From Planctomycetaceae bacterium (GTDB taxonomy: Bacteria; Planctomycetota; Planctomycetia; Pirellulales; Pirellulaceae), in the NCBI GenBank assembly GCA_012729315.1, contig JAAYDI010000063.1, positions 1 to 64,000 of the forward strand: a stretch of 64,000 bases of DNA, written 5' to 3'. The notes below the pieces were generated by a model. It worked only from the letters and a program-made list of their open reading frames with translations. It had not been told where the DNA came from and searched no databases. Positions 2,177-4,109 of this stretch are shown piece by piece. The first letter of the stretch is position 1, and the number at the start of each line of letters is the position of its first letter. Made by a program: the position numbers and the translations under genes.

Positions 2177-2335
2177 ATGAACAGAGACGCGCTTCAGCAG
2201 CCTACGGTCGACCAGACGACCAGCCCCGCGCCGGCTCGTGCCCTGGCTGAAGTGGCACAGCAGGTACGCCGCGACGCCGTGACGAACAGCCAAGAGTATC
2301 TGGACGAAACCACAGTTCCTCACGGTGGCGAATAG
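2177..2335 (+). CDS. Pup/UBact-like small protein modifier ending in GGE
   Basis: A 52-residue protein with no globular hydrophobic core, rich in Gln, Ala, Asp and Thr, ending ETTVPHGGE. Prokaryotic ubiquitin-like protein (Pup) and its Gram-negative relative UBact are short, mostly disordered proteins ending Gly-Gly-Gln/Glu (or SGQ/E), attached through the C-terminal glutamate to lysines of target proteins by PafA-type ligases. This one already ends in Glu, so no deamidation by Dop would be needed. Residues 20-45 could form the helix that in Pup binds the proteasomal ATPase. It contains no lysine, so it could not itself be modified into chains on lysine. Start ATG 2177 has GGAAAGG about 10 bases upstream. 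The ligase gene overlaps its last 11 bases. The assignment rests on the terminus, size and this linkage, not on overall sequence identity. Confidence 0.85.
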
Positions 2336-4109
2336 TGTGCCTATCCTCGACCGACTGGTCGGATTGGAGACGGAATACGCCATCCGTTTCCATCCCCGAG
2401 CGGGTGCGGGTGAGCCTCCCACTCGGTTCCACCTTTATCAGGCGTTGATCACCTGCGTGAAGCAGCGCGTGTTGACCGCGCCGGCCAGGCATTTCAAGGA
2501 GGGGGTGTTCCTGGCCAACGGCGGCGCGGTGTGGTTTGAAACCGAGCGCCCGGCGGCCGGCGGCGGCTTGATCGAAGGGGCCACTCCGGAGTGCCGGGGA
2601 CCATCGCAGGTGGTGCGGTATCAGCGCGCCCAGGATCAGCTGCTCGGCCAGTGCGCGCGGATGGCGGAGGTCGACGGCGAGTTCTCGCTGGTCAAGAACG
2701 ATCGGGACGGGCGGGGGCACGTCTACGGCGCGCAGGAAAACTATGAAGCCGTGCTCGGCACCGGCTGGGCGCTGTGGGGCTGGCGGCTGGGGCTGCTCCT
2801 GCTGATCCCCCTGGTCGTACTCATGTGGCTCGTCACTCTCCTGACGATCGGCGGGATATTGGTCTACTATGGCCTGGCCGGCCTGGTGTACCTGCCGATG
2901 CGGCGATGCACGACGCAGCCGCGGCGGCTGGCCGTGGCACTCTTCGGGCGCGATCTGGTGGAAGGGCGGGAGACCGGTTGCCCGACCCCCGCCTGGCTGG
3001 AGACGCTGTTGTTGTGGTTTGCACGTCTGGTCCACGCGCCGCTGGCCGTGTGCCTGCTGAGTCTGATCCACTGTACCGCCTTTCGGCGCACGCGCCGCCA
3101 GCTGTTGCCGTTCCTGATCAGCCGCTGCATCGTGACCGGCGCGGGCCTGGTGGACGACGACGGACGGTTTCAACTGGCTGACAAGGCCCCGGCCATCAAC
3201 TGCCTGATCGGGCTGGGCGGATTCCTGAAGGACCGGCCGGTGTTCACGTTCGGGCACTTCTTCAAGACGCTGTGTGTCGAGTCATTCCTGTCACCGCGCG
3301 AGTATGGTCAGCTGTTCCGGCAACGGCAGCGTCTGCAGATCGGGCTGGGCGATTCGAACATGGCGGAGCTGGCGGAGTTCCTGCGGGTCGGTACGACCGC
3401 GCTGCTGCTGGACGTGATCGAGGCGGGCGAGCTGCCGCCGCTGTCGCGGCTGGTCCGACCGCTGGAGGGGCTGCACCAGTTCTGCAGCGACCCGACACTC
3501 ACCTGCCGCGTACGGCTGCAGAACGGTCAGCAGGCAACGGCGTTGCAGCTGCAGCGATTCTATCTGGCGGCGTGCCAGCAGTTCCTGGCCCGCCGCCCCG
3601 AGGCGCCGGAAGAGGCCCACGAAGTGGTGGCAGCGTGGGAGGAAGTGCTCGACGGGCTGGAACAGCTGCAGCACTCCGGCCAGCTGCCGGCCTGCTTGAT
3701 CGGCACCGTTGACTGGGTGACCAAGAAACAGCTGCTGGACGAGGCCGGCAACAACATACCCTGGGAGGCGCGCAAGAAGATCGATATCTGTTACCACGAA
3801 CTGGCACCGCTGGGCTACTTCCAGATGCTGCAGGCCGCCGGCCTGACCGCACCGATAGTTACTCCCCAGGAGCTGGAACGCGCTGTGCGGACGCCCCCTC
3901 CCAACTCGCCAGCCACCATGCGCGGTCACTATATCCGCGAATTCTCGTCGGACGATACCGAGCTGTCCGTGAACTGGAAATGCGTCGTGATCGGGCGCGG
4001 ATGCAACGGCCGGTCTATTCGACTCGCGCGCTACGAACGACCCTCGCGAGTCGCGTCGGACCGCCCGCCACTGAGCACCCACGACCGCTCGAACACGTAT
4101 GAACCATAG
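2325..4109 (+). CDS. PafA-type Pup/UBact ligase with hydrophobic insertion
   Basis: A 594-residue protein of the carboxylate-amine ligase family that holds PafA and Dop. Recognisable blocks: [10 protein letters not shown] (11-19, Mg/ATP glutamate), FLANGG (62-67), GATPEC (85-90), [17 protein letters not shown] (124-140), LPFLISR..GAG (261-274), [41 protein letters not shown] and [10 protein letters not shown]. Actinobacterial PafA is about 450-480 residues; the excess is mostly a segment at about 145-257 with hydrophobic stretches at 150-190 and 225-250, inserted between two conserved blocks, so the enzyme may be membrane anchored. Where PafA has the catalytic Asp (LYxD), my hand alignment places Glu72. 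Start GTG 2325 overlaps the modifier gene; GTG 2337 is an alternative. It presumably joins the neighbouring GGE protein to lysines. No proteasome or ATPase gene is in the window. Confidence 0.85.

Follow-up and report, generated by a model that had tools for sequence, protein, structure and literature searches.

A Glu-ended Pup-like modifier and a predicted membrane-type Pup ligase form a putative two-gene pupylation cassette in a Planctomycetaceae bacterium

Pupylation has been studied mainly in Actinobacteria, where it usually feeds a proteasome. UBact, a short Pup-like protein of Gram-negative phyla, is encoded in loci that carry proteasome genes. The closest system described so far is that of Iyer et al. 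(2008, PMC2588565), in Rhodopirellula and Plesiocystis: a Pup of 50-90 residues with a G[EQ] end accompanies a ligase with four transmembrane segments, the insert lying after the fourth core strand. That paper reports no linkage to a proteasome, and membrane pupylation was proposed. Here we analyse a small Pup-like gene and the Pup ligase gene that follows it in a 64,000-nucleotide stretch of DNA, hereafter the window (positions 1-64,000, forward strand, of contig JAAYDI010000063.1, assembly GCA_012729315.1, Planctomycetaceae bacterium; the host draft genome has 5.47 Mb and is 96.65% complete, in 213 contigs). The original prediction, made from the sequence of this stretch, had recognised the gene pair correctly and overlooked that such a two-gene arrangement was already published in 2008, so that the window is a further member of a described type. 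We propose, with a probability of about 80%, that the pair is a self-contained cassette, made of a Glu-ended Pup and a membrane-anchored, proteasome-independent PupE-lysine ligase.

Both open reading frames (ORFs) were found exactly as predicted: 52 codons at 2177..2335 (+), beginning MNRD and ending ETTVPHGGE before the stop, and a longer ORF at 2325..4109 (+) opening on GTG. The features of the locus are as follows.

2177..2335, + strand: pup-like modifier gene (PupE type), 52 aa, with a His-Gly-Gly-Glu end (profiles and model)
2324..2332, + strand: codons for the C-terminal Gly-Gly-Glu, the probable conjugation end (sequence)
2337..4109, + strand: gene for the membrane-type Pup ligase, 590 aa from GTG 2337, or 594 aa from GTG 2325 (PF03136, AlphaFold2, VIA-align)
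2361..2375, + strand: GLETE nucleotide-binding block (GhExE), ligase residues 9-13 (E11 and E13 in 48/48 rows)
2538..2540, + strand: Glu68 codon, at the place of the PafA/Dop catalytic Asp (row alignment)
2745..3101, + strand: membrane insert of 119 aa, after the YGAQENY block and before the RRQLLPF helix (alignment, hydrophobicity)
2805..2909, + strand: predicted long hydrophobic helix, residues 157-191 (hydrophobicity and model)
2991..3074, + strand: predicted helix, residues 219-246, second half hydrophobic (hydrophobicity and model)

The small ORF encodes a genuine, conserved protein. When a profile was made from relatives, leaving the window out, the small ORF came top of all six-frame ORFs of the window (E 5.3e-15; the runner-up had 0.81), and a second profile that includes the window row (A2) had it as sole match in the host genome at E<=1 (E 7.1e-16). 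Over the last 24 codons, the ratio of nonsynonymous to synonymous divergence (dN/dS) was about 0.10 between the window and related locus L035 (dN 0.13, dS 1.24), and about 0.35 between the window and L036 (dN 0.34, dS 0.95). The protein contains no lysine. By its 52 aa, its GGE end and its place next to a Pup ligase gene, it agrees with the length and G[EQ] signature of Pup in the wide sense of Iyer et al. (2008). Its structural model (mean predicted local distance difference test, pLDDT, 76) has helices at residues 20-36 and 38-43, a loose N-terminus and an extended tail.

Association of the modifier with its ligase was then quantified in related loci, for which the best 80 of 108 relatives were kept from a scan of 84,980 species genomes. 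With a pattern that permitted the ends GE, GQ and GxE, a candidate modifier ORF was found 5' of the ligase in 67 loci, and in 65/80 after removal from Pup profile and counts of the doubtful L108 and L109, whose candidates lack the usual helix motif. Adjacent candidates end in Glu in 67/67 cases and never in Gln, GGE being the end of 55/67 (53/65 after dropping the doubtful pair). In 3 of the 65 (L084, L088, L093), 250-410 bases separate the candidate from the matched start of the ligase. Among 73 ligases with at least 500 bases upstream, 51 have a GGE-ended ORF of at least 30 codons within about 450 bases 5'; at random places in the same loci, such an ORF occurred 12 times in 1477. According to the original prediction, the small ORF was to be dismissed if it proved not to be conserved beside the ligase in related genomes; as adjacency is kept in 65/80 loci, the pair came through this sequence-based test.

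Thirteen of the 80 loci are without an adjacent modifier. Two of them start near the edge of a contig: L047 and L114, the latter a fragment from an actinobacterium. In the remaining 11 genomes, a whole-genome search with the Pup profile gave a match in 11/11, with E values from 9e-11 to 0.2, where chance-like matches start near E 0.3, and all 11 end in GE or GAE. The match of G396 (E 0.198) is close to chance level, and was accepted because its tail, RSNTGHDGE, is shared within its group. Taken together, all 76 modifiers (65 adjacent and 11 non-adjacent) end in Glu and none in Gln. Nine of the 11 have a tail like RSNTGHDGE and a gene away from the ligase, and 6 of these 9 genomes are titled Rhodopirellula or Rubripirellula; those ligases of this group that are in the tree described below cluster together. 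When the profile was run (E <= 0.05) on 18 chosen genomes, it matched in 10/12 ligase-positive and 0/6 ligase-negative ones. The two ligase-positive misses were G704 and G373; the latter has a GGE-ended ORF adjoining its ligase (L011), missed because this modifier is too different for the threshold used.

On the side, 7/12 of the unlinked Pup genes (Roseiconus, G629 and G644 included) lie beside an ORF with a HisA-like motif, an assignment by motif only; such an ORF is repeatedly near the unlinked Pup of the Rhodopirellula-Rubripirellula group (L121, L125, L126, L127, L128, L129, L131). The modifiers of three membrane-type systems (L101, L104, L123) end in Gly-Ala-Glu rather than Gly-Gly-Glu.

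An ORF directly 5' of the ligase, with a gap that is often a few tens of bases or less, might also be a leader peptide that translationally couples or regulates the ligase gene and modifies nothing. This we find scarcely credible: what is conserved is an amino-acid sequence, the tail is under purifying selection, conservation holds in the Rhodopirellula group where the gene is away from the ligase, and two copies accompany the ligases where there are two.

No neighbour but Pup came out as conserved when ORFs of at least 90 codons in the related loci were clustered, many flanks being short, so that a small conserved neighbour besides Pup could escape. A first clustering had produced a neighbour conserved in 55 loci, which was rejected as the antisense reading of the ligase itself. 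After overlapping ORFs were removed, the largest cluster comprised 15 loci at scattered distances (an example looked kinase-like by eye).

The second gene codes for a member of the Pup_ligase family, matching PF03136 with E 3.1e-85 and 287 bits (cut-off 25) over profile positions 1-440 of 441. It stays below the cut-offs of both equivalog models, with 164 bits for PafA (TIGR03686, cut-off 551.3) and 164.9 bits for Dop (TIGR03688, cut-off 492.3). The PafA-type ligase announced by the original prediction is therefore correct as to family; it is a membrane-inserted form and not an ordinary PafA, and the predicted transmembrane insert had been missed. The AlphaFold2 model, computed from 48 sequences, has a mean pLDDT of 91.8 and a predicted template modelling score of 0.91. 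PafA/Dop and other carboxylate-amine ligases top its Foldseek list (best E 3.8e-27). With VIA-align, the model superimposes on Dop 4b0r with Z 43.5 (414 residues, 2.4 A) and on the PafA-Pup complex 4bjr with Z 37.8 (417 residues), and on YbdK and glutamate-cysteine ligases with Z 16-21.

That these last enzymes share the superfamily fold, and that an active-site residue is altered (see below), would also fit an enzyme that no longer tags proteins and instead, like glutamate-cysteine ligases, produces a small gamma-glutamyl molecule or peptide. We consider this most improbable, since the match to PafA/Dop is far better than that to YbdK and glutamate-cysteine ligases and the enzyme is co-conserved with a Pup-like protein whose C-terminus is constant.

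What sets the protein apart is a predicted transmembrane helical insert, placed as in the type described by Iyer et al. (2008). From the YGAQENY block to the next core helix, there are 119 aa in the window ligase vs 12-20 in 14 non-membrane rows, including Nonomuraea PafA and Dop with 14 aa each. Within the insert, hydrophobicity peaks at ligase residues 153-171 and 231-249, and the model places there the long helices 157-191 and 219-246. Since both ends of the insert rejoin the catalytic domain, the number of membrane crossings is probably even.

The active site is altered as well. Alignment A3 comprises 47 of the 80 loci plus the window, and the tree and the counts at position 68 add the second Roseiconus ligase. 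L037, L061, L076, L080, L087, L094 and L105 were dropped for a stop or broken frame in the match range, and the 26 other loci outside A3 are near-copies, partial matches or were simply unpicked. The GLETE block, with its invariant Glu pair, corresponds to the nucleotide-binding motif GhExE, which is named in PMC7947786. At the position of the catalytic Asp of PafA/Dop, proposed as base or nucleophile (PMC3511204), Glu is present in 48/49 membrane-type rows (Glu68 in the window; L051 has Asp), and Asp in 14/14 non-membrane Pup_ligase rows, among them Nonomuraea PafA and Dop. The claim that all main PafA/Dop blocks are present thus needs correction: Asp has become Glu68, the TRDEPHA-type block of PafA and Dop is replaced, and some 100 residues with hydrophobic helices are inserted.

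In a tree of 63 rows, a branch supported at 100/99 separates all 49 membrane-type rows from the others, and by this alignment a single clade is characterised by the membrane insert and Glu68. The R. baltica ligase (L067) belongs to it, and Plesiocystis L105, with its stop in the match range, is outside the tree. Beyond Planctomycetota and Myxococcota, the clade has loci titled Acidobacteriota, Thermoanaerobaculia, Leptospiraceae and Uabimicrobium (from titles only, several being metagenome-assembled genomes, MAGs); one match in a Bacillota MAG is outside the tree. By model scores and by eye, the window ligase lies between PafA and Dop; single-copy planctomycete homologues served as outgroup to both in PMC7947786. 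A Pup_ligase gene of any type was found in 38/392 genomes drawn from the phylum. In the order of the host, matches to the ligase alignment (E <= 1e-30) occur in 36/296 genomes; of these, 34 belong to the family of the host, and the two matches in other families cover the C-terminal half only.

We next looked for the partners known from proteasomal systems. The searches for 20S subunits and Mpa/ARC that the original prediction had called for found neither in the host genome, only HslV and FtsH-like AAA proteins. The single PF00227 match at E<=1 is HslV (255.9 bits, cut-off 137), and a 20S core may have been missed because the genome is 96.65% complete in 213 contigs. TIGR03689 (pup_AAA, E<=0.001) gave 3 matches, the best with 149 bits vs 504.75, restricted to the AAA module; on scanning the matched stretches, two had FtsH as best match and the third matched FtsH and CDC48 about equally. 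The host genome has one Pup_ligase match only, and no second ligase or Dop was found in it.

The same picture was obtained in a comparison set of 33 entries: 4 with tandem ligases and 29 of membrane type, the latter amounting to 28 distinct genomes because G107 and G408 have identical places and were counted once. The Pup_ligase gene is single in 25/28 membrane-type genomes; G405 has a second membrane-type ligase, and G410 and G411 have an additional tandem ligase pair. An alpha-beta 20S pair was found in 0/28, PF00227 (E <= 0.001) matching nothing in 11 and one gene in 17 (in two pieces in G418). Among matches at E <= 1e-40, pup_AAA was above its cut-off in 0/33 genomes, and in membrane-type genomes these matches span the AAA module only. 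Near-full-length Mpa-like genes, found in G013, G016 and G050 next to tandem ligases of the non-membrane kind, also miss the TIGR03689 cut-off.

The proposed mechanism is as follows. The small gene would give a Pup-like modifier born ready, with a C-terminal Glu: as the original prediction had stated, deamidation is unnecessary with such an end, and no separate Dop gene was found in the host genome. The ligase, an ATP-dependent enzyme with a carboxylate-amine ligase fold, would probably be anchored to the inner membrane, on the cytoplasmic side, through its transmembrane insert. It would phosphorylate the gamma-carboxylate of the C-terminal Glu of Pup, after which a lysine amine attacks; this is the established chemistry of PafA (PMC3511204, PMC7947786). 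Glu68 probably acts in the role of the canonical catalytic Asp. The targets would probably be lysine side chains of nearby, likely membrane-associated proteins, and anchoring would restrict tagging to proteins in the membrane or on its surface, a proposal already made by Iyer et al. As to direction, no other Pup_ligase family member was found, so that any conjugates that exist must be made by the window enzyme. Since no second family enzyme, Mpa or 20S was found, the tag would most likely be regulatory, or be recognised by a general protease, FtsH for example; its removal, if it occurs, would have to fall to this enzyme or to one outside the family.

A stronger version makes the tag a degradation mark, pupylated membrane proteins being handed to FtsH or another AAA protease. 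Pup leads to an AAA ring in known systems, the host has HslV besides the two FtsH-best AAA stretches, and the ligase, by prediction, sits in the membrane as FtsH does. To our knowledge, FtsH is near-universal in bacteria, so that its presence is uninformative here, and no protease or AAA gene emerged as a conserved neighbour of the cassette. We regard this version as unlikely, though far from negligible.

Several results weigh against the reading of the pair as a stand-alone membrane ligase and its Pup. No Pfam or NCBIfam model matched the small protein at E <= 1 in the profile search foreseen by the original prediction, and PF05639 (Pup), which is among those that missed it, found Nonomuraea Pup at 1.6e-30 in the same library. 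An hhalign comparison with actinobacterial Pup put 29 C-terminal columns in register, with weak scores (E 5.7e-4, probability 29%). Distribution is patchy, 8/9 genomes of the own family in the 392-genome draw being without a ligase. Membrane insertion is a prediction only. A very divergent Mpa in other membrane-type genomes is possible, as it could escape a threshold of E <= 1e-40 when the Mpa-like gene of L138 scores 5e-24. In the ligase, the canonical catalytic Asp is not kept, and the membrane-type rows shown have other residues where Nonomuraea PafA and Dop carry their TRDEPHA-type block. Lastly, PafA and Dop models tie at about 164 bits, so that sequence cannot separate ligase from depupylase, and the fold matches Dop slightly better than PafA.

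These last two points, together with an alpha-loop region that is partly Dop-like by eye (GL...LK), are what would be expected of an enzyme that is mainly a Dop-like hydrolase, removing or processing Pup conjugated by another enzyme. Diagnostic PafA/Dop positions, as far as given in table 1 of PMC7947786, are mixed by eye in the window ligase and not decisive; by the same table, there is no Dop loop, and Ala-Thr before Pro-Glu-Cys is PafA-like. A hydrolase would need conjugates, and no other Pup_ligase gene to make them was found in the host or in 25/28 membrane-type genomes; a Glu-ended Pup also needs no deamidase. A mainly hydrolytic role thus appears improbable, and we retain the cassette as a ligase with its modifier.

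Some genomes contain two modifier-ligase pairs. G577 and G617 are complete genomes that belong to the same genus; both have two ligases and two distinct Pups, with tails VVVPDGGE and ANTQQQGE, and each Pup lies directly 5' of its own ligase (pair loci L159, L160, L169, L170). Roseiconus (L090, L135, L145) has two membrane-type ligases and two Pup-like proteins. One could imagine a single membrane-bound, proteasome-free enzyme with Glu instead of Asp in its active site that adds its Pup and also takes it off again, and two such pairs in one cell that serve as orthogonal tags with membrane targets; we find this tempting and rather doubtful.

The start of the ligase gene deserves comment, since the original prediction had the two genes overlap by 11 bases. 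GTG 2325 is indeed present, and the overlap is nevertheless uncertain because this GTG arises from the GGT GGC codons for the Gly-Gly of the Pup tail itself. GTG 2337, one base past the Pup stop, suits the N-terminus of relatives better: it matches the usual one, many relatives starting so that the R-L-x-G-L-E-T-E arginine falls near residues 4 to 6. L035 and L036 have both candidate starts. In L053 and L055, the GTG at -11 is present and no start was found behind the Pup stop, so that the overlap may be real. A purine-rich stretch at about 2158-2167 precedes the ATG of the small ORF.

The neighbours of the gene pair are a dihydroorotase gene on the opposite strand (NF005751, 643.6 bits, cut-off 529) and a glycosyltransferase-like gene; neither emerged as a system component by tblastn and neighbour clustering. 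The dihydroorotase was rejected as a conserved partner, tblastn having found the protein only beside the window, L035 and L036. At 246-599, a 117-aa ORF with a signal-peptide-like start has no Pfam or NCBIfam match at E<=1.

Very divergent Pup-like operons of a second kind were also encountered in Planctomycetota. Five loci (L136, L137, L138, L139 and L140, in G411, G410, G266, G019 and G192) have two tandem Pup_ligase-family genes (PF03136 E 1e-28 to 1e-40), separated by a small ORF that ends RRNRSGQ in L136-L138, RKNLPGE in L139 and RRNTSGE in L140. A divergent pup_AAA-like ATPase (E 5e-24) precedes the tandem ligases in L138, the sole one scanned. L141 (G238) has one such divergent ligase gene behind an ORF ending SSGE, and forms with the second tandem ligases a clade of its own (100/100). 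G410, home of the nearest relative of the window ligase, carries both a membrane-type and a divergent system. In L142, L143 and L144 (G016, G013, G050), an Mpa-like ATPase accompanies a tandem pair of non-membrane Pup ligases, together with a Pup whose end is GGQ (L142, L143) or GGE (L144). No PF00227 match at E<=0.001 was found in these three genomes, suggesting pupylation with an ATPase and no detected 20S core.

The cassette would be an apparent minimal form of pupylation, with one tag and one membrane-bound enzyme, no deamidase, ATPase or proteasome having been found. If this is true, Pup tagging can stand alone, and the cassette gives an enzyme between PafA and Dop in sequence. The Asp-to-Glu change common to the clade is a concrete prediction that can be addressed by mutation, the two-gene system could be moved to E. 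coli for testing, and two-pair genomes would permit a direct test of tag-enzyme specificity. We found no laboratory test of membrane-type pupylation in the open-licence papers searched, among which later work may be missing.

Compared with actinobacterial Pup, PafA and Dop, the window system shares the fold, the GhExE motif, the YGxxENY block and a helical Pup with a Gly-Gly-Glu tail; some actinobacterial Pups are also Glu-ended, that of Nonomuraea ending KGGE. Unlike actinobacterial pupylation, it has one enzyme instead of two, Glu in place of Asp, a membrane insert, and no Mpa or 20S among the genes found. UBact loci have proteasome genes, whereas none was found with the window system. Pupylation of the Corynebacterium type, as presented in PMC3511204, resembles the window in having Pup directly 5' of the ligase and no 20S core, and the Pup of C. 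glutamicum ends in Glu; corynebacteria keep Dop and a proteasomal ATPase, neither of which was found in the host genome.

The system of Iyer et al. (2008) is nearest: like the window, it has a ligase with a transmembrane insert, a small Pup and no proteasomal genes nearby in the loci as reported, and two of its taxa were recovered among our loci, Plesiocystis pacifica (L105) and Rhodopirellula baltica (L067; the strain analysed here is BR-MGV and may differ from theirs). It is described with four transmembrane segments, and the window model has two long helices and two hydrophobic peaks. Its Pup is stated to be invariably adjacent, whereas Pup lies away from the ligase in the Rhodopirellula group studied here, and a linked membrane-protein gene is mentioned, whereas Pup is the only neighbour that came out as conserved in the loci compared. 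To the picture of 2008, the present analysis adds the spread of the system, tails that end in Glu only, the Asp-to-Glu change, the unlinked Pup of Rhodopirellula, the lack of another conserved neighbour, and genomes with two modifier-ligase pairs.

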